This document shows positions 841 through 19,901 of a DNA stretch of 19,901 nt, piece after piece (the stretch's first letter is position 1; each line of letters starts with the position of its first letter). This DNA comes from Actinomycetota bacterium. GTDB lineage: Bacteria > Actinomycetota > Acidimicrobiia > IMCC26256 > JACDBD01. A program made the translations under genes and the position numbers. The stretch is taken from assembly GCA_013695115.1 (NCBI GenBank), contig JACDBD010000245.1:1-19901 (forward strand). Direction: 5' to 3'. The notes under the pieces are model-generated. The model worked only from the letters and a program-made list of their open reading frames with translations, did not search any database and was not told the origin of the DNA.

Positions 841-843
841 CGC

Positions 844-2378: not shown

Positions 2379-2668
2379 CCTTTCGGCACGTCGTCTGTTT
2401 CCGGTGGGCGGACGACACGACCGACGAGGACGTGGCGCGCTTCACCGAGATGCTGGTCGGCCTCCCCGGTGTGATCCCCGAGCTCCGCCGGTACCACTTC
2501 GGTCGCGACGCCGGCGCGGCCGAAGGCAACTTCGATTACGCGGTCGCGGCCGAGTTCGACGATCGCGACGGCTGGGTCGCGTACCAGGAGCATCCTGAGC
2601 ATCGGCGCTGCATCGAGTACGTCCGGCCCCTGATCCGCGACCGCGTGGCGGTGCAGTTCGACGTCTGA
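2375..2668 (+). CDS. Dabb (stress-responsive alpha/beta barrel) domain protein
   Basis: A 97-residue protein starting TFRHVVCFRW, the typical first strand of Dabb-domain proteins (dimeric alpha-beta barrel), with YAVAAEFDDRDGWVAYQEHPEH in the middle and a C-terminal strand RVAVQFDV. The histidines (HPEHRR) are in the place where this fold often has pocket residues. Members range from plant stress proteins to polyketide cyclases; the function here is not known. The start is GTG at 2375 in a 4-bp overlap (GTGA) with the SDR stop, with a good ribosome-binding site GGAGG (2364-2368) six bases upstream. It closes the cox/SDR operon: the next gene has its own promoter-like element. Confidence 0.82.
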   Translation: MTFRHVVCFRWADDTTDEDVARFTEMLVGLPGVIPELRRYHFGRDAGAAEGNFDYAVAAEFDDRDGWVAYQEHPEHRRCIEYVRPLIRDRVAVQFDV

Positions 2669-2677
2669 GCGACCACC

Positions 2678-2692
2678 TACGCTTGTAACGTG
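2678..2692 (+). promoter_or_regulatory. Leaderless-type promoter (-10 TACGCT) for the pgsA-like gene
   Basis: TACGCT (2678-2683) matches the actinobacterial TANNNT -10 element and is followed by six bases (TGTAAC) and then the GTG start. Transcription would begin at or next to the start codon, and there is no Shine-Dalgarno sequence. No convincing -35 is seen. The same arrangement recurs at four other genes in the window. Confidence 0.5.
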
Positions 2693-3289
2693 CCGGGCTC
2701 CGACCGCGTCGTCACGATCCCCAACGCGATCTCGATCGCCCGGCTGGCGTGCGTCCCCTGGTTCGTCTGGCTCCTCTTGAGCGAGGACCGGCCGGTCGCG
2801 GCGGCGATCCTGCTCGCCGTCCTCGGCGCCACCGACTGGGTCGACGGATGGATCGCCCGCCAGTTCGACCAGGCGAGCGAGGTGGGGAAGGTGCTCGACC
2901 CGACCGCCGACCGGGTGCTCCTGGTGGCAGCGGCGGTGGCACTGATCGTCGACGGCCGCGTGCCGCTCTGGGTGGGGTGGGTGGTGCTCGCGCGCGAGGC
3001 CGCGATCAGCGTGGCCGTGCTCGCGCTCGCCGCCGCCGGTGCCCGGCGCATCGATGTGCAATGGGCGGGCAAGGCGGGGACACTGGCCCTGATGTTCGCC
3101 CTCCCGGGGTTCCTGCTCGTCGACGCCATCGGCGACAGCCTGGGGCGGACGCTCCTGCTCGTCGGCACCTGGGGCTTCACCATCGGCGGCCTCGCGCTGG
3201 GCTACTGGGCCGCGGGGATGTATGTCCCGCTCGCCCGCCGGGCGCTGAGCGAGGGCCGGGCCGCCCGAGGCGCGGAGGTCGCACGGTGA
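2690..3289 (+). CDS. pgsA: CDP-alcohol phosphatidyltransferase (PgsA-like)
   Basis: A 199-residue integral membrane enzyme with the CDP-alcohol phosphatidyltransferase signature D-x2-D-G-x2-A-R-x8-G-x3-D-x3-D: D49, D52, G53, A56, R57, G66, D70, D74. The N-terminus VTIPNAISIARLACVPWFVW is typical of phosphatidylglycerophosphate synthase, and about six hydrophobic helices follow (roughly 17-31, 36-48, 76-88, 94-115, 125-143, 148-170). It would transfer the phosphatidyl group from CDP-diacylglycerol to an alcohol, most likely glycerol-3-phosphate; the exact acceptor is inferred. M. tuberculosis has a pgsA paralogue (Rv1822) in the same relative place upstream of gcvH-garA. GTG start without ribosome-binding site but with a -10 box six bases upstream. 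The stop overlaps the next gene's GTG. Confidence 0.88.
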   Translation: MPGSDRVVTIPNAISIARLACVPWFVWLLLSEDRPVAAAILLAVLGATDWVDGWIARQFDQASEVGKVLDPTADRVLLVAAAVALIVDGRVPLWVGWVVLAREAAISVAVLALAAAGARRIDVQWAGKAGTLALMFALPGFLLVDAIGDSLGRTLLLVGTWGFTIGGLALGYWAAGMYVPLARRALSEGRAARGAEVAR

Positions 3290-5778: not shown

Positions 5779-5823
5779 GGGGCGAAGGGCTCCCACGGCG
5801 GGGCGCTGTGCGAACATCTCGGC

Positions 5824-6108
5824 ATGATCATCGTGTCCGGCGCCATCTACGTCGACGAGGCCGATCGCGACTCTTACGTCCGCGACTGCCGAGAGGTGAT
5901 CGTGGCGGCCAGGGAGTCCGAGGGTTGTGTCGACTTCCATCTCGCGCCGGATCCGATCGAGCCTGACCGCATCAACGTCTACGAGCAGTGGGAGTCCGTC
6001 GCAGCCGTGGAAAGATTCAGGGGCTCGGGGCCATCATCGGCGCAGACGGCCGCAATCCGTGATGCCCCAGTGTTCCAACACGAGATCGCATCATCGACGA
6101 GGCTGTAA
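5824..6108 (+). CDS. Antibiotic biosynthesis monooxygenase (ABM)-domain protein
   Basis: A 94-residue dimeric alpha-beta barrel protein of the ABM/YgiN type: opening strand IIVSGAIYVDEADRDSYV, then REVIVAARESEGCVDFHLAPDPIEPDRINVYEQWESVAAVERF, the classic helix-strand order ending in the YEQW motif. The region usually carrying a conserved HxxxxHF-type helix is shortened (FRGSGPSSAQTAAIRDAP). Relatives include quinol monooxygenases and cofactor-free oxygenases, while others are of unknown role, so the reaction here is not assigned. It begins 45 bp after the nucleotidyltransferase fusion and is followed by 236 bp without a gene, which probably ends the transcription unit. No good ribosome-binding site is visible before the ATG. 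Confidence 0.78.
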   Translation: MIIVSGAIYVDEADRDSYVRDCREVIVAARESEGCVDFHLAPDPIEPDRINVYEQWESVAAVERFRGSGPSSAQTAAIRDAPVFQHEIASSTRL

Positions 6109-6173
6109 CGACTGTCCCCGAACGGCGACGTCCCGCTCGAGATCGTCGCCGAGCTCCGGTCGGTGGCGAAGAA

Positions 6174-6203
6174 GCCGGTCGACCGACCCACCGCCCGACC
6201 GGC
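6174..6203 (+). terminator. 8-bp stem hairpin downstream of the ABM gene (possible terminator)
   Basis: GCCGGTCG (6174-6181) is perfectly complementary to CGACCGGC (6196-6203) with a 14-nt loop. It lies 66 bp after the ABM stop codon. There is no U-tract, so a factor-independent terminator is only a possibility; it could also be part of the gcvH leader or its upstream regulatory DNA. Confidence 0.35.
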
Positions 6204-6214
6204 CGAGAGGACGG

Positions 6215-6242
6215 GAGGGAAGGCAAAGGCCTGCCATCCCTC
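6215..6242 (+). promoter_or_regulatory. Second hairpin in the gap upstream of gcvH
   Basis: GAGGGA (6215-6220) and TCCCTC (6237-6242), then an A-A mismatch, then GGCA (6222-6225) and TGCC (6232-6235) around a 6-nt loop AAGGCC. This gives a symmetric 10-bp stem with one internal mismatch. With the hairpin at 6174-6203 and the palindrome at 6290-6312, it makes the 236-bp gap unusually structured. It does not match the glycine riboswitch core that I would expect ahead of gcv genes. Confidence 0.35.
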
Positions 6243-6289
6243 GCATCGCGCGGTGAACTGCGCGGGAGCGGCGAGCGACCCGTTGTGGC

Positions 6290-6312
6290 GGCGGGCAGGT
6301 ACCCTGCCCGCC
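6290..6312 (+). promoter_or_regulatory. Palindrome with 10-bp perfect arms overlapping the putative gcvH -10 box
   Basis: GGCGGGCAGG (6290-6299), centre TAC, CCTGCCCGCC (6303-6312): the arms are exact reverse complements. The -10-like TACCCT (6300-6305) starts in the centre of the palindrome. The gcvH ATG is at 6345, preceded by AAGGAGG (6327-6333). The dyad could be an operator at the promoter or, if transcription starts further upstream, a strong RNA hairpin ahead of the ribosome-binding site. Confidence 0.55.
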
Positions 6313-6344
6313 GAGCGAGCCCGACCAAGGAGGACGGCCGCCCG

Positions 6345-6728
6345 ATGGACTACCCCGAGCAGCTCCGCTATAGCGCCGAACACGAGTGGGTGGCGGCCGA
6401 CGGCAACCGCGCTCGGATCGGGATCACCGACTACGCGCAGGACGCGCTGGGCGACGTCGTCTACGTGCAGCTCCCCGAGGTCGGCGCGACCGTGGCCGCG
6501 ATGGCGCGCTGCGCCGAGGTCGAGTCGACCAAGTCGGTGAGCGACATCTACGCGCCGGTGGGCGGCACAGTCGCCGAGGTCAACCAGGCCCTCGACGGAG
6601 CGCCGGAGAAGCTCAACCAGGATCCGTACGGCGACGGCTGGATCTTCGTGCTCGAGATGTCCGACCCGTCCGAGCTCGACAGCCTGATGGATGCCGCCGC
6701 CTATCGGCAGCTCGTCGAGGAGCAGTAG
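6345..6728 (+). CDS. gcvH: Glycine cleavage system H protein
   Basis: A 127-residue lipoyl carrier protein of normal length for GcvH. It shows the family path YSAEHEWV, IGITDYAQDALGDVVYVQLPEVG and the lipoylation site at K63 in EVESTKSVSDIYAP, then GTVAEVN, LNQDPYGDGWIFVLEM. The lipoyl-lysine arm carries the aminomethyl group from P protein (GcvP) to T protein (GcvT) in glycine breakdown. The start is the ATG at 6345, preceded by AAGGAGG; a longer in-frame start at 6285 would add 20 non-conserved residues and skip this ribosome-binding site. The next gene, nine bases on, is a LipM-type octanoyltransferase whose usual target is GcvH. gcvT and gcvP lie downstream at 11203 and 12329. Confidence 0.96.
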   Translation: MDYPEQLRYSAEHEWVAADGNRARIGITDYAQDALGDVVYVQLPEVGATVAAMARCAEVESTKSVSDIYAPVGGTVAEVNQALDGAPEKLNQDPYGDGWIFVLEMSDPSELDSLMDAAAYRQLVEEQ

Positions 6729-6737
6729 ACGCCGATC

Positions 6738-7454
6738 GTGACGACCACATGGCGTCTGGTGGATGATCTCGACGCTGAGCTGGATGCGGCCGGGCAGATG
6801 GCGGCCGACCGTGCGCTGCTCGACGAGGTGGCGGCGGGCGCGTCGCCGGCTCTGCGCCTGTACCGCTGGTCGCCCCCGGCGCTCTCGCTCGGTCGCTTCC
6901 AACCCGAGGACGACGTCGACCACACCGCGTGTCGGGACCGCGGCGTGGAGATCGTGCGTCGGCCCACCGGAGGGCGAGCGCTGCTTCACGGCGCCGACCT
7001 GACGTACGCGGTGGCGATGCCCCGCCCCGAGCGCGCCGCGAGCGTCGACGCGGTGTACCGGCTGCTGGCGCGGGGGCTGACGAGAGGGTTGGCCTGCCTG
7101 GGTGTCGAGGCCGCGGTCGCGCGCGCCGATGGTCCCGCCGGGCCGCTCTGCTTCGCGAGCCAACAGGGTGCCGACCTGAGGGTGGGGGAGCAGAAGGTGT
7201 GTGGGTCGGCGCAGGTCCGCCGCGACGATGCCGTGCTCCAGCACGGCGCGCTCCTGCTCGACCGGCTCCCGTTCGACGAGACCGACCTGCTTCGGGGCGC
7301 CGCGGACGACGACGGGCGGGCGCGACTGCGCGTCGCCACCGTGACCCTGCGCGAGCTCGGCGCGCCCGTCGATGCACGCGTCGTCGCCAATGCGCTGGCC
7401 GACGGCTTCGCCGAGGCCCTCGATCTCCGGTTCACCGCCGCCGTTCGCGGCTAG
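6738..7454 (+). CDS. lipM: Octanoyltransferase, LipM type (biotin/lipoate A/B protein ligase family)
   Basis: A 238-residue member of the biotin/lipoate ligase fold. The motif RRPTGGRALLH (74-84) has the Arg after the Gly pair that is usual in LipM/LipL-type enzymes, in contrast to GGGT of lipoate ligases. GPLCFAS places a Cys at 138 where LipM carries its catalytic cysteine, and GEQKVCGSAQ supplies the conserved Lys (K153), followed by LQHGALLLD. LipM moves octanoyl from acyl carrier protein to GcvH, the first step in lipoate synthesis. GTG start at 6738, nine bases after gcvH. The gene position next to its expected substrate supports LipM over a salvage ligase, but family separation by eye is imperfect and the gene symbol is a proposal. 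Confidence 0.75.
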   Translation: MTTTWRLVDDLDAELDAAGQMAADRALLDEVAAGASPALRLYRWSPPALSLGRFQPEDDVDHTACRDRGVEIVRRPTGGRALLHGADLTYAVAMPRPERAASVDAVYRLLARGLTRGLACLGVEAAVARADGPAGPLCFASQQGADLRVGEQKVCGSAQVRRDDAVLQHGALLLDRLPFDETDLLRGAADDDGRARLRVATVTLRELGAPVDARVVANALADGFAEALDLRFTAAVRG

Positions 7455-7476
7455 GTCGTTGCCGCGCCTGGTCGAG

Positions 7477-7492
7477 TAACCTCGACGGGATG
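7477..7492 (+). promoter_or_regulatory. Leaderless-type promoter (-10 TAACCT) for the garA-like gene
   Basis: TAACCT (7477-7482), seven bases, then ATG at 7490. There is no Shine-Dalgarno motif in the 35-bp gap after lipM, so this looks like a TANNNT-driven leaderless start giving garA-ftsR-hpt their own promoter. Confidence 0.5.
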
Positions 7493-7984
7493 ACCTGCCG
7501 GCGTTGCGGTCACGCGAACGAGGCCGGCGCCAACTTCTGCTCCTCGTGCGGGGCACCGCTCGCGGCGGGCGCCGGCCCCGACGACACCACCGCGAGCCTG
7601 GCCGCGCTCGAGGAGCGGCACGAGCTCGACGAGGAGCTCGGCAGCGCACTGGCCGAGCTGCCGGTCGGGATGGGCATGCTGGTCGTCCGGCGCGGGCCCA
7701 ACGCCGGGAGCCGCTACCTCCTCGACGACGACACGATCGCGGTGGGGCGTCATCCCGACTCGGAGATCTTTCTCGACGACATCACCGTGTCGAGACGGCA
7801 CGCCGTCGTCCGCCGTCTCGGTGCCGGCGGCTACGACGTCAACGACGTCGGCTCGCTGAACGGCACCTACGTGAACCACGAGCGGGTCGAGACCGCGCCG
7901 CTGCACTACCTCGATGAGCTCCAGGTGGGACGGTTCGTGCTCACGTTCCTCGTCGGCGGCGCCGCCGAGAGCGGGGAGGCATGA
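7490..7984 (+). CDS. garA: GarA/OdhI-like FHA protein with N-terminal zinc ribbon
   Basis: A 164-residue protein. Residues 1-22 are a zinc ribbon with two CxxC pairs (C3/C6, C17/C20). An acidic linker carries DDTT (Thr 33-34), and residues ~60-155 are an FHA domain: LVVRRGPNAGSRYLLD, GRHPDSEIFLDD (R87), VSRRHA (S101, H104), DVGSLNGTYVN (N124). The FHA part is strikingly like mycobacterial GarA and corynebacterial OdhI, which bind and restrain 2-oxoglutarate dehydrogenase and glutamate dehydrogenase and are switched off when a TT-motif threonine is phosphorylated by Ser/Thr kinases. Thr 33-34 sit at about the right distance for that role, which is inference. In M. tuberculosis garA also follows gcvH. 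The stop overlaps the next start as ATGA. Confidence 0.85.
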   Translation: MTCRRCGHANEAGANFCSSCGAPLAAGAGPDDTTASLAALEERHELDEELGSALAELPVGMGMLVVRRGPNAGSRYLLDDDTIAVGRHPDSEIFLDDITVSRRHAVVRRLGAGGYDVNDVGSLNGTYVNHERVETAPLHYLDELQVGRFVLTFLVGGAAESGEA

Positions 7985-8814
7985 GCACGCGGGCGGAGAC
8001 TCCTCACCTCTCCATCGGTGAGGTGCTCGAGCACCTCCGCGACGAGTTTCCCGACATCACGATCTCGAAGATCCGCTTCCTCGAGAGCCAGGGGCTGATC
8101 GACCCGGAACGGACGCCGTCGGGGTACCGCAAGTTCTACGACGCCGACGTCGCGCGCCTGCGCTGGATCCTGTACCAACAGAAGGAGCACTTCCTCCCGC
8201 TCAAGGTGATCAAGGAACGGCTCGACGGCCTCGACGACGGCGATCTGCCCGCCACCGCCCACGCGCCCGAGCCCGCCGTCGAACCGGCGGGCGGGAACGG
8301 GAGCAGCGCGTCGCCGTCACCCGGGGACACCGTCGCCGACCTCTCGCTCGACACCGCGACACCGGCCCCGGTCGCCGCGGTCGAGACCGACGAGCGTTCG
8401 ACACCGGCGCCCCGGGAAGTGTCATCCGGCGGGATGAGTCTGACCCGCACCGAGCTGGCCGGGGCCGCCGGCCTCGACGACGAGCAGGTCGCCGAGCTCG
8501 AGTCGTTCGGGCTCCTCGCCCCTTACTCGCGGGTGGGGGAGCAGGAGCTGTTCGACGAGGAGGGCCTTACCATCGCCCGCACCGCGGGCGAGCTCTACAA
8601 GCACGGATTCGAGGCCCGGCACCTGCGGATGTACAAGCACTTCGCCGAGCGGGAGGCCGACCTGTTCCAGCAGGTGCTCCTGCGCTACCTGCGCCAGCGC
8701 AACCCGCAGGCGCGAGCGAAGGCCCGGGGGGAGCTGGGCGAGCTGGCCCGGCTGGGTCGGGACCTGCGGGCGGCGCTGCTCGTCACGGCGCTGCGCGAGT
8801 CGCTGACCGAGTGA
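7981..8814 (+). CDS. ftsR: MerR-family regulator, FtsR/Rv1828-like
   Basis: A 277-residue transcription factor. The N-terminal winged helix-turn-helix (about 10-75: LSIGEVLEHLRDEFPDITIS, then KIRFLESQGLIDPERTPSGYRKF) is MerR-like. A Pro/Ala-rich linker of ~60 residues follows (85-145), then a C-terminal segment (GMSLTRTELAGAAGLDD...YLRQRNPQARAKA) matching the architecture of mycobacterial Rv1828 and Corynebacterium glutamicum FtsR, an activator of ftsZ. Those proteins lie directly after the GarA/OdhI gene, as here. The linker looks longer than in those relatives, whose overall length I recall as about 250 residues. Translation is coupled to garA (ATGA) and to hpt (GTGA at 8811-8814). The regulatory target in this organism is not visible. 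Confidence 0.83.
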   Translation: MSTRAETPHLSIGEVLEHLRDEFPDITISKIRFLESQGLIDPERTPSGYRKFYDADVARLRWILYQQKEHFLPLKVIKERLDGLDDGDLPATAHAPEPAVEPAGGNGSSASPSPGDTVADLSLDTATPAPVAAVETDERSTPAPREVSSGGMSLTRTELAGAAGLDDEQVAELESFGLLAPYSRVGEQELFDEEGLTIARTAGELYKHGFEARHLRMYKHFAEREADLFQQVLLRYLRQRNPQARAKARGELGELARLGRDLRAALLVTALRESLTE

Positions 8815-9395
8815 CCGCGGCGTCTCCCGCGGTCCTGCTCGACCGGGCCGCCCTCGGCGACATCGTGCGCCGGCTCGCCGACGAGATTACCGCCGACCAT
8901 TCCGAAGGGGTCGTCCTCGTGGGCGTGCTGAAGGGCGCGATGATCTTCCTGTCGGACCTCGCCCGTGCGATCACCGACATCGACGTGACCGTCGACTTCC
9001 TCGCGATCTCGCGGTACGCGCCCGACTCGGGGCGCGTACGCATCCTCAAGGACCTCGATGTCGAGGTCGCGGGGCGGGACGTCGTCATCGTCGAGGACAT
9101 GGTCGACACCGGCCTGACGCTGGGCTACCTGCTCGGGCACGTCCGGGACCTGGGCCCGCGCCAGGTCGAGGTGTGTACGTTGCTGGACCGGCCCGTGCGC
9201 CGGATCGTGCCGCTGCGCGCCCGCTACGTGGGGGAGGAGATCCCCGACGTGTTCGTGCTCGGATACGGGCTGCACTTCGCCGACCTGTACCGCAACGTGC
9301 CTTACGTCGTCGACGCCGACCGGGCCGTCGTGAGTGCGCGGCCGGACGCCTACGTCGCCGAGCTCTATGGCCGGGGCAGCGCCAGTTCGAGCTGA
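8811..9395 (+). CDS. hpt: Hypoxanthine(-guanine) phosphoribosyltransferase
   Basis: A 194-residue purine salvage enzyme that attaches hypoxanthine or guanine to PRPP. The PRPP-binding loop is VVIVEDMVDTGLTL (91-104), with both acidic residues followed by DTG. Other family marks are VLVGVLKGAMIFLSDLAR, the flexible-loop region SRYAPDSGRVRILKDLD, and the C-terminal VPDVFVLGYGLHFADLYRNVPYV-type segment (here EEIPDVFVLGYGLHF), which stacks on the base. GTG start in a 4-bp overlap with the MerR gene. In mycobacteria hpt is elsewhere, next to tilS/ftsH, so its place between the FtsR-like and bifunctional nuclease genes is an insertion into an otherwise conserved block. Confidence 0.93.
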   Translation: MTAASPAVLLDRAALGDIVRRLADEITADHSEGVVLVGVLKGAMIFLSDLARAITDIDVTVDFLAISRYAPDSGRVRILKDLDVEVAGRDVVIVEDMVDTGLTLGYLLGHVRDLGPRQVEVCTLLDRPVRRIVPLRARYVGEEIPDVFVLGYGLHFADLYRNVPYVVDADRAVVSARPDAYVAELYGRGSASSS

Positions 9396-9465
9396 TCCCG
9401 CCGCCCAGGCGCACCGGCGCCAGGGAGGGCCGATGGTAGGGTTTCGGCGTCGAGTCGGAGGCGCC

Positions 9466-9948
9466 GTGATCCGTCTGTCCCTGGTGGGAGTCCGAGTCGA
9501 GGTTCCGACGAACCAACCGATCGTCCTCCTGCGCGAAGAAGAGGGCCAGCGCTACCTGCCGATCTTCATCGGCCCCCCGGAGGCGACCGCAATCGTGTAC
9601 GCGCTCCAGGGCATGGAGACGCCGCGGCCGATGACCCACGACCTGTTCAAGACCGTGCTCGACGACATGTCGATCGAGCTCCAGCGGGTGGAGATCACCG
9701 AGCTCCACGACGGGACGTTCTTCGCCGAGATCGAGCTCGCCAGCGACGGGACCAACTACCGGATCTCGTCCCGGCCCTCCGACGCCATCGCCTTGGCAGT
9801 TCGCTACGAGGAGCAGGTGCCGATCTTCGCCGACGAAGCCGTGCTCGAGGAAGCCGGGGTGCTCTTCGAGAGCGACGAGGAAGAGGAGCAGGTCGAGGAG
9901 TTCCGCGAGTTCCTCGAGAACGTGCGGCCCGAAGACTTCGCCCAGTAG
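9466..9948 (+). CDS. Bifunctional nuclease family (DUF151) protein, Rv1829-like
   Basis: A 160-residue protein with the DUF151 pattern: LVGVRVEVPTNQPIVLLREEEG, RYLPIFIGPPEATAIVYALQG, PRPMTHDLFKTVL, FFAEIELA, ISSRPSDAIALAVR and VPIFADEAVLEEAG. The tail is strongly acidic (ESDEEEEQVEEFREFL) and ends NVRPEDFA, as in the mycobacterial homologue Rv1829. Members were described as having DNase and RNase activity in plants, but the bacterial role is unclear. I chose GTG at 9466, which follows GGAGG (9457-9461) and fits the family start; an ATG at 9433 with its own GGAGG would add 11 residues (MVGFRRRVGGA). TAGGGT (9437-9442) could be a -10 box, which would favour the shorter form. Confidence 0.87.
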   Translation: MIRLSLVGVRVEVPTNQPIVLLREEEGQRYLPIFIGPPEATAIVYALQGMETPRPMTHDLFKTVLDDMSIELQRVEITELHDGTFFAEIELASDGTNYRISSRPSDAIALAVRYEEQVPIFADEAVLEEAGVLFESDEEEEQVEEFREFLENVRPEDFAQ

Positions 9949-9980
9949 CTCCTGCGCCCGAACCGCAGCGCGCCGCCCCC

Positions 9981-10003
9981 GCCCGGCCCGAGGCCCGGCC
10001 CGA
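9981..10003 (+). repeat. Short tandem repeat GCCCGGCCCGA x2
   Basis: GCCCGGCCCGA occurs at 9981-9991 and again at 9993-10003, a 12-base period, in the 221-bp gap between the DUF151 gene and the second MerR gene. It is very GC-rich and self-complementary in part (GGCC), so it may add to transcription termination after 9948. No other role is apparent. Confidence 0.3.
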
Positions 10004-10011
10004 CCCTCAGC

Positions 10012-10024
10012 CGGCGGTCCGCCG
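10012..10024 (+). terminator. Small GC hairpin after the DUF151 gene (weak terminator candidate)
   Basis: CGGCG (10012-10016) pairs with CGCCG (10020-10024) around GTC. There is no U-tract and the stem is only five base pairs, so this is a weak candidate for ending the garA-ftsR-hpt-DUF151 transcript, 63 bp after the stop. Confidence 0.2.
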
Positions 10025-10075
10025 ACTCCGGATCCACTTCTGCGGGCCGTAGCCGGCCGCTCCGGGCCGCGGACC

Positions 10076-10120
10076 GGGTGTCGTTGACGGTCGGGGGAGA
10101 GGGCGGTACCGTCGACACCC
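10076..10120 (+). promoter_or_regulatory. Promoter embedded in an inverted repeat, upstream of the second MerR gene
   Basis: TTGACG (10084-10089) and TACCGT (10107-10112) are separated by exactly 17 bp, the best sigma-70-like promoter in the window. Both boxes lie in the arms of a dyad: GGGTGTCG (10076-10083) pairs with CGACACCC (10113-10120), and, after a TTG bulge, ACGGT (10087-10091) pairs with ACCGT (10108-10112). The gene starts at 10170, giving a leader of about 50 nt. A regulator bound to the dyad would cover the promoter; autoregulation by the MerR protein is a guess. Confidence 0.6.
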
Positions 10121-10169
10121 CCGTAACTACCGCCGTGTGATTCGGGCCTTCCAGAGCGAGGAATTCCTC

Positions 10170-10709
10170 ATGGGTACCACCGCCAACCGCAACCAACCCC
10201 CGCGGATCACCCAGGGCTCGCTCCTGGACCGCGACGGCGACGAGGTCGGCTTCCGGGGGCCGCAGGTGTGCAAGATCGTGGGCATCTCCTACCGCCAGCT
10301 CGACTACTGGGCCCGAACCGACCTGGTCCGTCCCTCGCTCGCCGACGCCCACGGCAGCGGCACGCAACGGCGCTACTCCTATCGCGATCTCGTCCGTCTC
10401 AAGGTCATCAAGAATTTCATCGACGCGGGCGTGAAGCTCCAGACCGCCCGCAAGGCGATCGAGTACCTCCGCGAGGACCTCGGCGACGACTGGGCAACGG
10501 CCAGCCTCGTGCTCAACGGTGCCACCTCGGTGCTGGCGCGCGACGGCGACGCGCTGGTCGACGTGGTGCGCCACGGCCAGGGCGTCCTCAACATCGTGTC
10601 ACTGGGACAGGTCGTCGACGAGCTCGAGGCCGGCATTCACGAGCTCGCGCCCGACGAAGGTGCCCCGTCGCCGCCGGCCGAGCGCGGCCGGCGCGCCGAG
10701 AGCGGATAG
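10170..10709 (+). CDS. MerR-family transcriptional regulator, Rv1830-like
   Basis: A 179-residue regulator with a MerR winged helix-turn-helix at about 30-100: FRGPQVCKIVGISYRQLDYW, ARTDLVRPSL, GSGTQRRYSYRDLVRLKVIK, FIDAGVKLQTARKAIEYL. The remainder (SLVLNGATSVLARDGDALVDVVRHGQGVLNIVSLGQVVDEL) is the conserved C-terminal part of the family to which mycobacterial Rv1830 belongs; that gene likewise follows the DUF151 gene and precedes gcvP. No metal-binding cysteines typical of metal-sensing MerR proteins are present. The chosen start is ATG 10170, with AGGA about seven bases upstream; a GTG at 10137 in frame would add MIRAFQSEEFL. The gene has its own promoter with an overlapping inverted repeat. 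Confidence 0.86.
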   Translation: MGTTANRNQPPRITQGSLLDRDGDEVGFRGPQVCKIVGISYRQLDYWARTDLVRPSLADAHGSGTQRRYSYRDLVRLKVIKNFIDAGVKLQTARKAIEYLREDLGDDWATASLVLNGATSVLARDGDALVDVVRHGQGVLNIVSLGQVVDELEAGIHELAPDEGAPSPPAERGRRAESG

Positions 10710-10730
10710 CCGCCGGGCGGGCGGAACCGG

Positions 10731-11174
10731 ATGACCGACGATCGCCTGCCCCACGAGGACGTTCGCTTCGCGCACAACTCGGAGCGCCAGTTCGCGAAGC
10801 TGCTCGACTTCTACGGGATCGCGTGGGAGTACGAGCCGCGCACGTTCACGCTCGAGACCGACCGCGAGGGCCGGCCGGCGCAGGCGTTCACCCCCGACTT
10901 CTACTTGCCGGCGTACGACCTCTACATCGAGATCACGACGCTCAACCAGAAGCTCGTGACCAAGAAGAACCGCAAGGCACGCCGCCTCCAGGAGCTGTAC
11001 CCCGACATACGCGTGAAGGTCCTGTACCAGCGCGACTACCTCCACCTGCTCGTGAAGTACGGGCTCGAGCCGCCGTCACAGCTCAGCGAGCAGCTCGGCG
11101 AGGGCGGACCGCTGCGCCTCGACGTCGAGCCCGGCCGGGACGCCGACGGCGATCAAGCGGCGGAAACGGCATAA
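10731..11174 (+). CDS. Conserved protein with PD-(D/E)xK nuclease-like core
   Basis: A 147-residue protein not assignable to a named family by eye. The core resembles restriction-endonuclease-like folds: an N-terminal Glu on a helix (NSERQFAKLLDFYGIAWEYEP, E18), a strand and turn TPDFYLPAYDLYIEITT with P55-D56 and E67, then LNQKLVTKKNRKARRLQEL and the strand VKVLYQRDY. The canonical ExK reads E67-I-T69, so the usual Lys is missing or may be replaced by a nearby one (K74, K78 or K79). I recall similar proteins, with a VTTMKQSLVTRKNRK-type motif, in many actinobacteria. The C-terminal ~40 residues are low-complexity. It is 21 bp after the MerR gene and probably co-transcribed. Cellular role unknown; DNA repair or RNA/DNA processing are speculative. 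Confidence 0.65.
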   Translation: MTDDRLPHEDVRFAHNSERQFAKLLDFYGIAWEYEPRTFTLETDREGRPAQAFTPDFYLPAYDLYIEITTLNQKLVTKKNRKARRLQELYPDIRVKVLYQRDYLHLLVKYGLEPPSQLSEQLGEGGPLRLDVEPGRDADGDQAAETA

Positions 11175-11188
11175 ACGGCAGCCCCACC

Positions 11189-11205
11189 TAGGCTGCCGCG
11201 GCATG
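11189..11205 (+). promoter_or_regulatory. Leaderless-type promoter (-10 TAGGCT) for gcvT
   Basis: TAGGCT (11189-11194), eight bases, then the gcvT ATG at 11203; no ribosome-binding site. Just upstream, AAACGGCA is repeated in tandem at 11164-11171 and 11173-11180 (9-base period) and spans the preceding stop codon, in the area where a -35 element or an operator would sit. Confidence 0.45.
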
Positions 11206-12315
11206 ACTGAGATCGACGGGCCCCTCCGACAGAGCCCGCTGGACGCCGAGCACCGGGCGCTCGGCGCGCGCATGGTGCCGTTCGGCGGCTGGGACATGCC
11301 GATCCAGTACGAGAGCGTCTTGGCCGAGCACCGGGCCTGCCGCGAGCGCGCCGTCGTGTTCGACGTCTCGCACCTCGGCTCCGTGCGCGTGCACGGCAGC
11401 GGCGCGCGTCCCCTCCTGCAGTGGGCGCTCACGAACGACCTCGGCCGGATCGAGCCCGGAAAGGCGCAATACACGCACCTGCTCGATCCCGACGACGCCC
11501 ACGTCGTCGACGACATCATCGTCTGGTGGGTCGCCGATGACGACTTCCTGGTGATGCCGAACGCCTCCAACACCGGGCCACTGGTGGCGGCGCTCGAGGA
11601 CGCGGTGTCCGACCCCGCCGACGGTGCCGCGTGCCGGGTGGAAGACGTCACCGCGACCCGCGCCGTTCTGGCGGTGCAGGGCCCCGAGGCGCGGGCGCTG
11701 ATCGAGCCGCTCGCGCGCGCGCTCGCCGCGGTTCCGCGGTTCGCGGTGCGGCCGGCGGCCTACGACGGGCACGAGGGGTTCGTGGCCGGCACCGGCTACA
11801 CCGGCGAGGACGGGATCGAGCTGCACATCCCCGCGCCCGCGGCGCCGGCGTGGTGGCGAAAGCTCATCGGCGCCGGGTTGGTGCCGGCAGGACTCGGAGC
11901 CCGCGACACGCTGCGACTCGAGGCCGGCCTCCCGCTGCACGGCCACGAGCTCGGGCCGGGTATCACCCCTCTACAGGCGGGGCTGGCCTGGGTGGTGCGC
12001 TTCGATAAAGGCGCGTTCCGCGGTCGTACCCCGCTCCTGGCCGAGCGCGAGCAAGGCGTGCATCGCAAGCTCCACGGGTTGCTCGTCGACGGCCGCCAGG
12101 TGCCCCGGTCGGGTCAGGCGGTGCTGCGCGGCGACGGCGACGACGTCATCGGCGAGGTCACCAGCGGGAACTTCTCCCCGGTGCTCGAGCGGGGGATCGC
12201 GCTGGCGTTCCTTCACCCCGACATCGAGGAGGGCGCCGAGGTCGCGGTCGACGTCCGCGGCCGCCGGGCCGCCGCAAGGGTGGTCCGACCGCCATTCGTG
12301 CGACGAGACGGGTAA
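11203..12315 (+). CDS. gcvT: Glycine cleavage system T protein (aminomethyltransferase)
   Basis: A 370-residue T protein of usual length. It shows [24 protein letters not shown] at the start, [13 protein letters not shown], the Asp pair at 103-104 in VVDDIIVW (position of the catalytic Asp in GcvT), [39 protein letters not shown] and the C-terminal [12 protein letters not shown] barrel domain. It transfers the methylene carbon from aminomethyl-lipoyl H protein to tetrahydrofolate, releasing ammonia. It is followed after 13 bp by gcvP, and gcvH lies about 5 kb upstream, so three of the four cleavage-system genes are in this window. Start chosen at ATG 11203, directly downstream of a TAGGCT box. 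Confidence 0.95.
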
Positions 12316-12328
12316 TAGGCTCCGACGG

Positions 12329-12331
<3 letters not shown>
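12316..12331 (+). promoter_or_regulatory. Leaderless-type promoter (-10 TAGGCT) for gcvP
   Basis: TAGGCT (12316-12321) abuts the gcvT TAA stop (12313-12315) and is followed by seven bases and the gcvP ATG at 12329. It is the same hexamer as in front of gcvT, so the two genes may be under shared control even though each appears to have its own start site. Confidence 0.5.
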
Positions 12332-15208
<2,877 letters not shown>

Positions 15209-15216
15209 TCAGGCGC

Positions 15217-15233
15217 CCTCAGCCGGCCTGAGG
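15217..15233 (+). terminator. Hairpin immediately after gcvP
   Basis: CCTCAG (15217-15222) and CTGAGG (15228-15233) form a perfect 6-bp stem with a CCGGC loop, eight bases after the gcvP stop. No U-tract follows, as is common for actinobacterial terminator candidates. It probably ends transcription from the left arm before the dif-like site. Confidence 0.5.
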
Positions 15234-15300
15234 ACCCCTGGAGCTCACCGGGCGGGGGAACGGTGCCGCCCAGCAGGCCGAATCCTCACGATCCTCGTCT

Positions 15301-15328
15301 ACTTGACATAACCGGGATTATGGGCGTT
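15301..15328. other. dif: Candidate chromosomal dif site (XerC/XerD recombination site)
   Basis: The 28 bp divide as 11+6+11: ACTTGACATAA (15301-15311), CCGGGA (15312-15317), TTATGGGCGTT (15318-15328). Read on the minus strand the right-hand XerD-type arm is TTATGTCAAGT, close to the E. coli arm TTATGTTAAAT and, as I remember it, identical to the arm conserved in actinobacterial dif sites. The XerC-type arm is AACGCCCATAA, keeping the inner CATAA. The inner TTATG/CATAA bases are palindromic around a 6-bp centre, as required for XerCD. The site is intergenic, flanked by hairpins, and lies exactly where coding strand changes from all-plus to all-minus, as expected of a replication terminus. An integrative element using a dif-like att site is the alternative, but no integrase or element genes are present. 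Confidence 0.82.
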
Positions 15329-15375: not shown

Positions 15376-15398
15376 CTGAGGGTGGCGGAAGCCCTCAG
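15376..15398 (-). terminator. Terminator-like hairpin at the 3' end of the minus-strand SDR gene
   Basis: CTGAGGG (15376-15382) pairs with CCCTCAG (15392-15398) around a 9-nt loop. The stem overlaps the stop codon of the minus-strand SDR gene (15395-15397), so transcripts coming from the right would end before reaching the dif-like site. Confidence 0.5.
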
Positions 15399-16111
15399 AA
15401 GGGCGCTCCGGTCGAGTCGATCACCTGGCCGTTGATCCAGCAGGCGTCGTCAGTACAGAGCCAGGCGATGAGACGGGCGGCGTCGTCGGGGTGACCCCAG
15501 GCCGGCACCCGCTCACGCTGCTCGGGGGTGGCCCAGCCGGTGTCGGTGGCTCCCGGGTTCACGGTGTTGACGGTGATCCCCCGAGCGAGCAGCTCGGCCG
15601 CCAGGGTGCGGGTGACCTGATGGATGGCGCCCTTGGTCGCGACGTAGCCGAGCTCGCCCGGCATCGGCCCGCGATGTTGGCCCGACGTCATCATCACGAC
15701 GCGGCCGCCGGTGCGGCCGTCGTGTTGCGCTGCGAACGCCTGCACGAGGAGCAACGTCGCCCGCGTGTTCACCGCCCACTGGGCGTCGAGCTCCTCGGCA
15801 TTGGTCTCCAATAGACCGAGGTGGTCACTTCGGGCGTGGTTGGCAACCAGCACGTCGACGTGACCGAGCGACGCGACCGCCGCCGCCATAACCTCCGCAG
15901 GCGCCGCCGGGTCGAGGAAGTCGGCTTCCATCGCCTCGATGCCATCGGGGTCCGCTCTCCACGGTTGGGCGGCGTCGTGCGCGGACCAGCCGCACAGGAA
16001 CAGGTCGGCGCCCAGGTCGGCCAGACGGCGCGCGATCGCAGCGCCGATACCGATGCGACGCGAGACGCCAGTCACGAGCGCGCACCGACCCTCGAGTGAA
16101 GGTTGAGACAT
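15395..16111 (-). CDS. SDR-family oxidoreductase (3-oxoacyl-ACP reductase-like)
   Basis: A 238-residue classical short-chain dehydrogenase. It has the coenzyme motif VTGVSRRIGIG (13-23), NHA (91-93) in place of NAG, S143 in MMTSG, and the catalytic pair Y156-x3-K160 in GYVATKGA, then TVNTVNPGATDTGW and a C-terminal WINGQVIDSTGAPF. It is thus expected to be active, unlike the SDR at 1632. The substrate is not predictable. ATG start at 16111 with AGAAAGG seven bases upstream on the minus strand. It is separated from the Nudix gene by 136 bp that hold repeats and dyads, so it seems to have its own regulation. Its 3' end carries a hairpin facing the dif-like site. Confidence 0.9.
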   Translation of the reverse strand: MSQPSLEGRCALVTGVSRRIGIGAAIARRLADLGADLFLCGWSAHDAAQPWRADPDGIEAMEADFLDPAAPAEVMAAAVASLGHVDVLVANHARSDHLGLLETNAEELDAQWAVNTRATLLLVQAFAAQHDGRTGGRVVMMTSGQHRGPMPGELGYVATKGAIHQVTRTLAAELLARGITVNTVNPGATDTGWATPEQRERVPAWGHPDDAARLIAWLCTDDACWINGQVIDSTGAPF

Positions 16112-16247: not shown

Positions 16248-16694
16248 TCACGCTCGCGGCGGCGGTTCGACGCCGAGGTCCACCGGTTCGGCCGGCTCGA
16301 GAATGTCGTGGTCGACGAGGAAGTCGAGTAGCCCGTGGACCAGGTGCATGCCGTCGAGCTCGGTGAGCGACACCCACGCAACCTCGGCGGCGTCGTCACC
16401 CGCAACCGGGGTCTGCGCGGGGTCGAGCACCGACACGGCGAAGTCCAGGATCACAAAGTGATGCGCGTCCCCGATGCGCTCCACCCAGCCGAGGAACCGC
16501 TCCACGACCACCTCGATGCCGGTCTCCTCGGCGACCTCGCGCACGACCGCCTCGTGCAGTTCCTCGCCCACCTGCACCCGGCCGCCCGGCACCGACCACT
16601 CCCCCGCCGCCGGGCCCCGCCCCCGGCGGACGAGCAGTACCTCGTTGTCTCGGAGCGCGACCCCGCCGACGGCAACCTCGACGACGTCACTCAC
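16248..16694 (-). CDS. Nudix hydrolase
   Basis: A 148-residue MutT/Nudix protein. The Nudix box G-x5-E-x7-REVAEETGI is complete at about residues 38-60 (GGRVQVGEELHEAVVREVAEETGI), preceded by VLLVRRGRGPAAGEWSVP. It should hydrolyse a nucleoside diphosphate linked to another group; substrate unknown. The C-terminal part (EVAWVSLTELDGMHLVHGLLDFL) is ordinary for ADP-ribose pyrophosphatase-like members. GTG start at 16694, in a 4-bp overlap (GTGA) with the stop of the upstream GNAT gene, so the two are co-translated. Confidence 0.92.
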   Translation of the reverse strand: MSDVVEVAVGGVALRDNEVLLVRRGRGPAAGEWSVPGGRVQVGEELHEAVVREVAEETGIEVVVERFLGWVERIGDAHHFVILDFAVSVLDPAQTPVAGDDAAEVAWVSLTELDGMHLVHGLLDFLVDHDILEPAEPVDLGVEPPPRA

Positions 16695-17170
16695 GCGTCG
16701 CTCGATCCCGCGCGCCGGTGCATGACGATGGCGCGGGCAGTGAAGCCCGACCTCTCGAAGAAATTCTTGGCCGACCGATGCCCCGGCAGAGCGAGCGCAT
16801 CGATCCCGACGCAGTCGTGCCGGCCGCAGAACGCCACCAGGTCGCCCGCCAACGCCTCGCCTACCGCCACGCCGCGCGCCTCGGGCTCGACGAAGAGGTC
16901 GGTGATCACTCCCAGGGTCGCGCCCGAGCGCAACTGCTCTAACTCGGCCGCGCCGAAGCCGATGATCGCGTCGTCGATCGTCCCCACGAGCAGACAGGCG
17001 TCGTCCCGGTCGAGCAGCACACCGTACGAGTCCTCGAGCGGCTCGGGCCGGCTTTCACGCACTGCCCACAGGGCGCCGCCCTTCATGGCGGCGAGCTCGG
17101 TACGCATGAGGCGGGCGAGCTCGGCGATGCGGCTCAGGTCGGCGGGTGCGGCCGCGCGGCTCGCCTCCAC
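16691..17170 (-). CDS. GNAT-family N-acetyltransferase
   Basis: A 159-residue acetyltransferase-like protein. The acetyl-CoA binding motif A is GVITDLFVEPEARGVAVGEAL, where the usual R/QxxGxG/A reads ARGVAVG; a beta4 strand DDAIIGFGAAEL precedes it, and NFFERSGFTARAIVMHR near the end is the normal motif B. N-terminal ADLSRIAELARLMRTEL fits the GNAT first helix. Acetyl acceptor unknown. GTG start; the gap to the preceding gene's stop is two bases, and its stop overlaps the Nudix start, so it sits in the middle of a tight minus-strand operon. Confidence 0.83.
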   Translation of the reverse strand: MEASRAAAPADLSRIAELARLMRTELAAMKGGALWAVRESRPEPLEDSYGVLLDRDDACLLVGTIDDAIIGFGAAELEQLRSGATLGVITDLFVEPEARGVAVGEALAGDLVAFCGRHDCVGIDALALPGHRSAKNFFERSGFTARAIVMHRRAGSSDA

Positions 17171-17172
17171 CG

Positions 17173-17745
17173 CTAGGTGATGAGCTGGTCGATCTTGAAC
17201 AGGATCGTGCGGCGACCGCGGTGCGCTTCCTCGTAGGCCCGCACAGCGGCGAGGTCGCGCGCCGATAGGCCGTCGAGACGCTCCACCACCTGGGACGCCG
17301 AGAGCTCGTCGTAGTCGGGGATCGCCAACGCCTGCGCCTCGGCCCGCTGCACCGTGGTGTCGACCGCCGGCTCGGACTGGCGACCACGGTCCGGTGCCGC
17401 GGTGGCCGGCCGGCCGTTCGTGGTCTCGGGAGCCGCATTCGACCCGTCACCCGGTACCACGAGGCCGGAGAACGCCTGCTCGGCCAGCTGGCGGGCGCCC
17501 CGCAGGCCGTCTTCGACCCGGCGGCGCACGTCGGGACCGAGAGTGAGGGCAGCTTCGCCGAGTGAGCGCGCCCCCGACGCCTGCTCCCCCACCTTGCGTC
17601 GGCGCGACGTCAGCTCGGAGCGCCCGCGCGAGACGAAGACCTTGAGGAACGTCGGGACGGTGTCGCGCACGTACAGCGCGAGGCCGACCGGCCCGTACAC
17701 GAGGAGGTCGAGCGCCCGTTCCGCCGGGTTTTGGTCGTCGCTCAC
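17173..17745 (-). CDS. Conserved actinobacterial protein of unknown function
   Basis: A 190-residue protein I cannot assign with confidence. The N-terminus (ERALDLLVYGPVGLALYVRDTVPTFLKVFVSRGR) is amphipathic to hydrophobic and could lie on a membrane. The middle is helical and charged, followed by a low-complexity Ala/Pro/Thr linker (~100-130). The end, IPDYDELSASQVVERLDGLS and RDLAAVRAYEEAHRGRRTIL, is a conserved small motif that I recall from actinobacterial proteins, some annotated as lipid droplet-associated; that link is weak. GTG start at 17745, six bases after a TAGGAT box that overlaps the lnt stop codon. It is followed by the GNAT gene after two bases. Confidence 0.75.
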   Translation of the reverse strand: MSDDQNPAERALDLLVYGPVGLALYVRDTVPTFLKVFVSRGRSELTSRRRKVGEQASGARSLGEAALTLGPDVRRRVEDGLRGARQLAEQAFSGLVVPGDGSNAAPETTNGRPATAAPDRGRQSEPAVDTTVQRAEAQALAIPDYDELSASQVVERLDGLSARDLAAVRAYEEAHRGRRTILFKIDQLIT

Positions 17746-17757
17746 GCGCCCATCCTA
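17743..17757 (-). promoter_or_regulatory. Leaderless-type promoter (-10 TAGGAT) overlapping the lnt stop codon
   Basis: On the minus strand TAGGAT (17757-17752) is followed by six bases (GGGCGC) and the GTG start at 17745. The first three bases of the hexamer are the TAG stop codon of lnt. It would give the unknown-protein/GNAT/Nudix genes a start site independent of lnt. Confidence 0.5.
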
Positions 17758-19365
17758 GGACGCGCCCGGTGACGCGATGCGAGGCGGAGGAACCCACCGC
17801 CAGCGGCCGTACGCGGCCGAGGCGACGAGCGCGAGGGCACTGGCCCAGATCACCCAGTCGCCGTAGCGGACGTAGGGCGTCTGGCCGGTCGTCGTGACCA
17901 CTTCGGACGTCACCACCTCGTTCTCGAAGAGCTCGGTCGTGTGGCTCACGTCGCCGCGCGCGTCGATCCGCCCACTGATACCGGAGATCGAGGCCTGCAC
18001 GACCGGCCGCCCGGTCTCCGCGGCGCGCATCTGGCCCAGCGCGATGTGCTGTTCGGAGTTGGCCGACCGACGGTACGACCGGTTGTTGGTGGTGACCACG
18101 ATGATCTCGGATCCGTCCCGTACGAAGTCGCGCACGAGCGGACCGAACGCCGACTCGAAGCAGATGATCGTGCCCACCCGATGCCCGGCGACCTCGAAGA
18201 GGCTGCGCCCCTTCCCGGGCGCGTAGTCGTACGGGATCCGGTCGAGAATCCCGCCCCAGTCGAGGAAGCGCCGGAGGGGCACGTACTCCCCGAACGGCAC
18301 GAGATGCTGCTTGGCGTAGGTCCCCTGGAGCTCGCCGTCGGGGTCGAAGAGGAGGTTGGTGTTGTAGTCACGCCCGTCGGGCGCGGGCAGCAGCGCGTTC
18401 ACGAGCATGGCGGAGTCGTGGGCGGCGCCGATGTCGGTGATCCGCTTGCGGAGGTCCGGATCCTGCTCCGGGTTGCGGTTCAGCGACGACTCGGGGAACA
18501 CGATCAGGTCGTACTTCCCCTCGATCGTGTTGGCCAGCTCGAAGTGCTGCTCAACCACGACCGCCTCGAACTCGATTGGGTCGGTGATGTCGCGGTTCTG
18601 GTCGTTGCCCTGGATGGTCGCGATCCGAAGGTGGCCGGTCTCGGTCGGTTCGTAGCGGAACCCGTGGCCGAGGCCAACGGCCACGACGACCCCCGCGAGG
18701 CCGGCAGCGGCGAACGACAGCGGCCGCCACGACCGGGTGCGGGCGTCCATGAACGCGTCGAGGAGCAGACCGTTCACTGCCACGACCAGGAACGTCACCA
18801 GCGCGATGCCACCCCAGCTCGCAAGCGACCGGGCCACGGGGAAGTCGTGGAGTGCCGCCCCCGTCTCCCCCCACGGCAAGCCACCGAACGGGAAGCGACC
18901 GCGCAGCTGCTCGAAGAGCACCCACGTCCCCGCGGTGAGCCATGGCGATCGAATCCCGAAGCGGGCCAGGCCGGCGATCAGTGCTCCCGGCGCGGCGATG
19001 TACGCCCCGCCCGCCACGGTCAACGGAAGGTACGCGACCGCGCCGAAGTACCAGATCCAGGAGAGGATCACGCCGAAGAACGCGAGCCCGAAGCAGAACC
19101 CGTACAGGGCAGCCCGTCGGGGGGTTGCGTCCCGCCACGCCCACAAGAGGGGTACCAGTGCCACCAGCGCGAGTGGGCCGAGGTCGAGTCCGGGGAACGC
19201 GGCGGAGAGGAGCAGGCCCGACCCGATCGCGGCCGAGATACGCCACCGGACCGGCGCATCCCACCGGGGCCAGTGCGGCCGCCAGTGTCTCCGGGCGCGT
19301 CGTGAGGGGGTGGGCTCGGGTCGGTCTGCCTCCGAAGGGGCAGCCGCCGCGACACGTGTGGTCAT
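17755..19365 (-). CDS. lnt: Apolipoprotein N-acyltransferase
   Basis: A 536-residue membrane enzyme that adds the third acyl chain to lipoproteins. Residues 1-42 are an Arg/Pro-rich cytoplasmic tail; about six to seven membrane segments follow between 43 and 235 (for example 60-75, 88-108, 112-132, 184-202, 217-233). Then comes a nitrilase-like periplasmic domain with the catalytic triad in family context: E292 (FPESSLNR), K352 (YAKQHLVPFGEYVP, with E360) and C402 (IICFES). A last membrane helix is near 505-520. There is no fused dolichol-phosphate mannose synthase domain, which mycobacterial Lnt (Ppm1) can carry. ATG start at 19365 without a clear ribosome-binding site, 28 bp after the DUF4193 gene. 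Confidence 0.93.
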   Translation of the reverse strand: MTTRVAAAAPSEADRPEPTPSRRARRHWRPHWPRWDAPVRWRISAAIGSGLLLSAAFPGLDLGPLALVALVPLLWAWRDATPRRAALYGFCFGLAFFGVILSWIWYFGAVAYLPLTVAGGAYIAAPGALIAGLARFGIRSPWLTAGTWVLFEQLRGRFPFGGLPWGETGAALHDFPVARSLASWGGIALVTFLVVAVNGLLLDAFMDARTRSWRPLSFAAAGLAGVVVAVGLGHGFRYEPTETGHLRIATIQGNDQNRDITDPIEFEAVVVEQHFELANTIEGKYDLIVFPESSLNRNPEQDPDLRKRITDIGAAHDSAMLVNALLPAPDGRDYNTNLLFDPDGELQGTYAKQHLVPFGEYVPLRRFLDWGGILDRIPYDYAPGKGRSLFEVAGHRVGTIICFESAFGPLVRDFVRDGSEIIVVTTNNRSYRRSANSEQHIALGQMRAAETGRPVVQASISGISGRIDARGDVSHTTELFENEVVTSEVVTTTGQTPYVRYGDWVIWASALALVASAAYGRWRWVPPPRIASPGAS

Positions 19366-19393
19366 GCTGCCGGACAGGATCGCGCCGCGTGCG

Positions 19394-19901
19394 CTAGGCG
19401 CAGTCGCGGCACAGCATCCGTTTCTCGTCGGCGAGCTGGTTACGAGTCAGCACGAGGAAGCACGACGCGCAGAGGAACTCGCCCGGGCGCCGCGGAAGGA
19501 TCTTGGCGGGTCCCTCGCCCGGCTCGTCCGTGTCGGCCTCCTCTTCCTCGACCGCCTCCTCGTCGTCCTCGAGGGTCGCGGCCGCCGTGCGCTCCTTGAG
19601 CAGTACGTCGAGCGGCTCCTCGACATCGTCGGGATGGAGCTCGTCGTCGAGCTCGACGGCGACTTCTTCCTCTTCTTCGGCGCTCTCGGTCGCCGGCGCC
19701 GCCGCCGGCGCCACGGCCGGGACCGCCACCGGCTCGGCGTCGTCGGCTACGTCGGCGGCCGCGTCGAGATCGACGATGTCGACCACAGTCTCGTCGAGGT
19801 CGGGGTCGGGGTCGTCGATCTCTTCTTCGAGCTCGTCGTCGAGGTCCTCTTCCTCCTCGAGATCGTCCTCATCGAGGTCGGGCTCCTCCTCGAGCTCGTT
19901 C
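19394..19901 (-). CDS. DUF4193-type zinc-ribbon protein with long acidic region (5' end outside window)
   Basis: The frame is open from the right edge, giving at least 168 residues; an internal GTG at 19786 could start a 130-residue form, but the coding-like acidic sequence upstream of it argues for a longer protein. The C-terminus GEFLCASCFLVLTRNQLADE with MLCRDCA has the CxxC...CxxC zinc-ribbon pattern and wording of actinobacterial DUF4193 proteins (around ~100 residues, unknown function). Before that, nearly all is Asp/Glu with Ala/Val/Pro spacers (EEEEEVAVELDDELHPDD; upstream LEEEPDLDEDDLEEEEDL). DUF4193 proteins I know have a shorter acidic stretch. Neighbour to lnt by 28 bp. Function unknown. 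Confidence 0.75.
   Translation of the reverse strand, partial: NELEEEPDLDEDDLEEEEDLDDELEEEIDDPDPDLDETVVDIVDLDAAADVADDAEPVAVPAVAPAAAPATESAEEEEEVAVELDDELHPDDVEEPLDVLLKERTAAATLEDDEEAVEEEEADTDEPGEGPAKILPRRPGEFLCASCFLVLTRNQLADEKRMLCRDCA

Follow-up and report, generated by a model that had tools for sequence, protein, structure and literature searches.

The window, i.e., the whole stretch of 19,901 nucleotides that was analysed, is one entire contig of a 2.65-Mb assembly, which is 87.9% complete and split into 454 contigs; with this number of contigs the window's position on the organism's own chromosome is not mappable. Sixteen named or conserved genes lie on the plus strand to the left of a 28-bp sequence at 15301–15328, and six lie on the minus strand to its right. 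The initial annotation had described a switch of gene strand at this point; for named or conserved genes the switch holds, with six genes on the right as claimed but 16 rather than 18 on the left, and a crude gene caller also places 2,049 bp of frames with opposite orientation in the window. The 28-mer lies within the 186 bp that separate the gcvP stop (15208) from a short-chain dehydrogenase gene (15395); these flanking genes are convergent, their stops lying 92 bp before and 66 bp beyond it, respectively. The features referred to below are as follows.

797–15259, plus strand: 12 polar octamers, all pointing to the 28-mer, the nearest starting at 15252
6285–6728, plus strand: GcvH, glycine cleavage H protein (PF01597, 1.6e-42), absent from the query set used for relatives
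6929–7984, plus strand: FHA protein of the OdhI/GarA type (NF041660, 5.6e-44, below the curated cut-off)
7981–8814, plus strand: FtsR, MerR-type regulator (NF050798, over the cut-off), the landmark gene tested across the phylum
9334–9948, plus strand: bifunctional nuclease (BFN) domain protein (PF02577), the query for named relatives
11203–12315, plus strand: GcvT (profile match)
12329–15208, plus strand: GcvP (TIGR00461)
15301–15328, minus strand: putative dif site, 28 bp, AACGCCCATAA / TCCCGG / TTATGTCAAGT, 11+6+11 layout
15301–15311, minus strand: XerD-type arm TTATGTCAAGT, the same sequence as the Frankia alni arm given in the available part of PMC3025954
15312–15317, minus strand: central hexamer TCCCGG, the expected region of strand exchange
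15318–15328, minus strand: XerC-type arm AACGCCCATAA, the arm being named by analogy with known dif sites
15395–16111, minus strand: short-chain dehydrogenase (SDR; profile match), first gene beyond the 28-mer
16248–19786, minus strand: NUDIX, GNAT, a conserved unknown, apolipoprotein N-acyltransferase (Lnt) and DUF4193, the block on the XerC-arm side
16599–17591, minus strand: two polar octamers, both pointing to the 28-mer

As a separate observation, a frame of 1009 amino acids at 2749–5778 fuses a ManC-type nucleotidyltransferase with a phosphoglucosamine mutase-like part.

Read on the plus strand, the 28-mer is ACTTGACATAACCGGGATTATGGGCGTT, and chance cannot plausibly account for its presence with the proposed 11+6+11 organisation. 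When three mismatches are allowed to the pattern CATAAN6TTATGTNAANT, 0.01 matches are expected in the window; there is one, which is exact and on the minus strand. A scoring matrix built from 26 relatives' loci, with the window left out, gives the site 47.4 bits; no other place in the window exceeds –3.2, and 20 shuffles reach at most 2.7 bits. Averaged over 27 loci, a column within the 28-mer carries 1.67 bits of information and one outside it 0.12, a contrast that is partly built in because the core columns served to find the sites; two elements outside the site-picking pattern, GCC in the XerC arm and CG at the end of the centre, are conserved too. A search of the 87.9%-complete assembly for further copies, as suggested initially, returned this single copy at up to three mismatches.

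Predictions of dif for 66 single-chromosome actinobacterial genomes are given in PMC3025954, as is a proposed dif of F. alni, CACGCCGATAATGCACATTATGTCAAGT. To judge from the available part of that paper, the F. alni site and the 28-mer share the 11+6+11 layout, an XerD arm that is identical at 11 of 11 bases, in keeping with the proposed fit of the minus-strand arm to the conserved dif arm, and an XerC arm of the type GCC(C/G)ATAA. They differ in that the XerC arm starts with AACGCCC in the window and CACGCCG in F. alni, and in the central hexamer, which is TCCCGG in the window and TGCACA in F. alni. The word Acidimicrobi is absent from the main text of PMC3025954 in the form available to us, and what PMC13277299 and PMC11898615 say, in their available portions, about dif and KOPS is of a general kind and concerns mycobacteria and Corynebacterium.

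The strongest new evidence for dif comes from a polarity switch known from corynebacteria, where the available parts of PMC2830990 and PMC3219685 describe octamers with a strand bias, G(A/T/C)GGGGGA and (T/C)GGGGGAG, whose preferred strand changes at dif; for C. aurimucosum, 856 leading versus 61 lagging copies are given (PMC2830990). Counting GHGGGGGA and YGGGGGAG with overlapping copies merged, all 14 copies in the window are aimed at the 28-mer and the switch falls between 15252 and 16599, whereas the number 14 is not unusual in itself (shuffles have a mean of 9.4 and a largest value of 18). Within 400 kb around dif, 130 of 154 octamers point to it in one relative (G018) and 105 of 109 in another (G059), and dif falls inside the interval of the best switch, whose two bounds are 49 bp and 1.3 kb away in the window, 0.35 and 1.3 kb in G018, and 0.8 and 1.5 kb in G059. 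Pooled over 21 loci, the window included, the ratios of copies directed toward and away from dif are 113 to 9 and 142 to 8 for the two octamers. Twenty stretches sampled along each of the G018 and G059 chromosomes carry mostly plus-strand octamers before dif and minus-strand octamers after it, the bias becoming weaker with distance; exceptions are the stretches at 0.30, 0.54, 1.26 and 4.61 Mb in G059, which are tied, reversed or empty, and those from 0.74 to 1.34 Mb in G018, which are mixed. The architecture imparting sequences of Corynebacterium are the same octamers and likewise switch orientation at a dif-like 28-mer (PMC2830990 and PMC3219685, as far as available); here they are seen in another class, the Acidimicrobiia.

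An octamer bias of this kind could also mirror codon use on co-oriented genes rather than guidance, in which case the site would be dif regardless. All named genes in the window point to the site, so that the window alone cannot separate the two readings. In the relatives, however, the octamers still point to dif inside genes directed away from it (49 to 1 in G059 and 34 to 6 in G018) and between genes (18 to 1 and 21 to 5, respectively), all with crude gene calls. Since polarity is held in opposite-strand genes and between genes, it is not just a matter of gene strand, and we regard the explanation by codon use as unlikely.

Other terminus-related signals are less informative. The initial annotation had reported one E. 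coli-type KOPS on each side, both pointing in; our data do not lend support to this claim, as the window holds three copies of GGGNAGGG, of which two point toward dif and one, at 6302–6309 on the minus strand, points away, with a chance mean of 4.3. E. coli KOPS was for this reason set aside as support. The corresponding counts toward and away are 34 to 19 around dif in G018, 25 to 19 in G059, and 57 to 20 in the 21 pooled loci including the window; the word is thus at most weakly polar, and overlap with the G-rich octamers (e.g., at 14460–14470) may be part of this. A SpoIIIE-type word, GAGAAGGG, was rejected, as it is not polar (10 to 9 and 5 to 4 in two relatives, 4 to 3 in the pooled loci). 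A sharp local GC-skew turn, suggested as a check, is not supported either, with no clean turn seen within the window. In G018 the skew is in broad agreement, being mostly positive before dif and negative after, with the cumulative maximum in the central 400 kb lying 36 kb away; in G059 there is no local turn, and the sampled maximum lies near 1.74 Mb versus dif at 2.23 Mb. Only nine of 21 loci have higher skew in the left than in the right flank. Local GC skew is accordingly a weak terminus test in this class, and the polar octamers mark the site more sharply in the two relatives tested.

The setting of the site is shared by relatives. A 16-letter core, with up to two mismatches, was searched in 61 genomes; it matched in 37 and had no match in 24, and some matches are clearly due to chance, examples being the seven in one genome (G010) and a second, poor one in the window's own genome. 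The surroundings of 22 sites were compared by tblastn of 21 window genes, GcvH not being among the queries. In 14 of the 22 loci the FHA, FtsR, HPRT, BFN, MerR, GcvT and GcvP genes lie on one side of dif and the NUDIX, GNAT, Lnt and DUF4193 genes on the other, with dif oriented as in the window. Only the first side was found in L090, L093 and L048 (with GcvP on the other strand in L048), only the second in L081, L088 and L097, and neither in L098, which belongs to another order; several short loci stop at a contig edge, though L048, L093 and L098 do not. In L083 (genome G006) the NUDIX-GNAT-Lnt-DUF4193 block lies across dif from its side in the 17 other loci that have the block, an arrangement that an inversion breaking close to dif would leave. 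The GcvP match comes in two or three pieces at ~40% identity in several loci, and the SDR gene had no tblastn match near dif in any of the 22.

Searching named genomes with the BFN protein yielded 28 loci, in which dif was sought with up to three mismatches (a shuffled control gave 3 matches in 140). Where the full 10-kb flank is available, a minus-strand dif lies 4.0–9.7 kb downstream of BFN in 10 of 12 loci, the two without being from Actinocorallia and a Chloroflexi; among loci with shorter flanks, two more have dif and the other 14 (0.1–8.0 kb of flank) have none. Eight of the 12 dif-bearing loci are contigs already in the set of 61 genomes. One BFN locus (L100, CAMDCC010000144.1), filed under 'Bifidobacterium breve', encodes a protein 80% identical and is probably of this lineage.

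In four loci (L079, L080, L092 and L095) extra genes separate dif from its usual neighbours; their families include enoyl-CoA hydratase, BpsA_C, glycosyltransferase, amidohydrolase, M3 peptidase and others. No integrase was found among the 10 long frames scanned in these insertions, of which seven belong to ordinary enzyme families and three had no match.

Two readings that deny the site the role of a resident dif have to be weighed. Integrative elements that exploit XerCD (IMEX type) leave flanking dif-like 28-mers, and the site might be such an att remnant. The initial annotation had itself named an integrated element bounded by the site as evidence that would count against dif; the assembly, however, contains no second flanking 28-mer, no recombinase family occurs among the scanned window frames, and most of the 22 relatives' loci have the same genes near the site. 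Although some phages do integrate at dif via XerCD, as stated in the available part of PMC5357621, we consider an att origin of the present 28-mer highly improbable. It might otherwise be a conserved palindromic operator or terminator that is merely dif-like, for which its place between two convergent genes would be suitable. Against this, the letters match dif, the polar octamers switch at the site, and the site stays while its neighbours vary: dif is up to 6 kb from the conserved genes in relatives and, in two families (f63 and f88), mostly 165–480 kb from ftsR. Such a regulatory role has, in our estimate, hardly any chance of being the explanation.

Candidates for the recombinases are present in the same assembly. 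Seven proteins match PF00589 (tyrosine recombinase), two of them strongly: an XerD (L032) over the TIGR02225 cut-off, and an XerC-like protein whose best match is TIGR02224, at 291.6 versus a curated cut-off of 335.15. The suggested check for xerC, xerD and ftsK is thus answered in part, with XerD over its cut-off, the XerC-like protein below it, and FtsK motor and gamma families without a match in the profile search of the 87.9%-complete assembly. The gamma domain is present in 56 of the 61 genomes; the window's genome is among the five without, and a member of the same family (G001) has it. In relatives the recognition helix of the gamma domain reads GF(A/S)RAGR(L/I)MD (seven sequences from this class and one from another lineage), a sample of 8 of 14 domains that fitted an expression which itself fixes part of the helix. 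The equivalent helix in the closest solved FtsK structure is GYNRAARMIE. We take the E. coli residues R1300 and E1303 to fall on this helix, with R kept and E replaced by D. Both residues are important for the reading of KOPS by E. coli FtsK, according to the available part of PMC2680272.

The supported and best reading is that of a dif-like XerCD site at the replication terminus, because the letters fit actinobacterial dif, there is one copy, relatives share the setting and polar octamers switch there. We put the probability that 15301–15328 is the chromosome's dif site, resolving dimers by XerCD under FtsK control, at about 0.95. Points that count against it are the lack of an FtsK match in the assembly, the below-cut-off score of the XerC-like protein, the GC-skew results, and the genomes in which the core pattern (24 of 61) or a looser one (214 of 396) has no match. 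By analogy with the known pathway, each sister site of a dimeric chromosome would have its two arms bound by XerC and XerD; FtsK, loading at the G-rich polar octamers and guided by them from both chromosome arms, would bring the sister sites together and activate XerD, and recombination would give two monomers, presumably close to where the replication forks meet. As in the E. coli XerCD/dif-FtsK-KOPS system, polar octamers converge on a single site and XerD and XerC-like genes are present; unlike in E. coli, the strongly polar word is GHGGGGGA/YGGGGGAG and not KOPS. The site type is well known, and the 28-mer adds a typical dif from an uncultured actinobacterium. A dif as such is no surprise on a circular chromosome; of more interest are its strikingly conserved setting, with linkage and orientation kept across families, and the shared polar word.

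For ftsR, the proposal of an old terminus landmark in this neighbourhood is borne out in 34 genomes from 18 families. FtsR is over the family cut-off in 362 of 396 genomes of the phylum, and a looser dif pattern matches in 182 and not in 214; in one genus with genomes of 6–11 Mb it matches in 1 of 19, with two mismatches. Linkage was measured in 36 genomes, i.e., G018 and 35 others that have a dif among the matches listed and are assembled into no more than about 10 contigs, all chosen for having a dif match and not for the distance to ftsR. FtsR was found in 34 of the 36 (E ≤1e-15; 33 over the cut-off), in all 34 on the same contig as dif, at distances of 9.5–480 kb that are below 35 kb in 19. 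In families f63 and f88 the distances are mostly 165–480 kb. The gene is directed at dif in 33 of the 34, and in 31 it is found on the side of the XerD arm. Twelve of these 34 dif sites have two mismatches, and the sites in G134 and G432 look doubtful, G134 being the one exception to the direction. Expressed as a share of half a chromosome, the medians of the 18 families range from 0.005 to 0.134, and uniform placement of ftsR is rejected with p ~4e-16, a value that ignores the relatedness of families.

In one genome of this sample (G435:C1:2492341-2503119) there are two equally good dif-like sites of opposite orientation, separated by ~11 kb and each with one mismatch, possibly with a captured element; choice of the other site changes the XerD-arm-side count to 30 of 34.

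The identity of the actinobacterial terminus may have been kept since before the families split, the ftsR arm having stayed on the XerD side, reading toward dif, because octamers that guide FtsK make nearby inversions and insertions costly; we give this proposal even odds. According to an idea in the available part of PMC5993296, inversions are held back by polar sequences close to dif, and the kept dif neighbourhood fits it. A terminus inversion has been reported for C. aurimucosum (PMC2830990, as far as available), and the arrangements in L083, G286, G305 and G336 suggest terminus inversions here. The count covered ftsR alone, which may not be special among terminus genes. Among the matches listed, a literature search gave no title or abstract on an ftsR-dif linkage. 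If the proposal is true, the left and right chromosome arms are recognisable across the phylum and ftsR is a terminus marker in fragmented genomes. One marker gene may locate dif and its direction in fragmented assemblies of uncultured actinobacteria, and the question of whether FtsK guidance freezes terminus gene order becomes testable over the phylum.

Extra Xer half-sites accompany dif in a few relatives only and were not seen in the window. An inverted XerC half-site (TTATGGGCG, or the variant CTATAGGCG where the XerC arm reads CGCCTATAA) lies 9–34 bp outside the XerC arm in L082, L086, L087, L088, L091 and L183, and L086 and L091 have a second one at 75 bp; with one more, weak, in L168 at 131 bp, there are nine matches versus 1.1 expected in 67 loci. 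On the opposite flank, in L195, the XerD half-site TTATGTCAA recurs twice beyond the XerD arm, at distances of 10 and 31 bp, each time as an exact direct copy.
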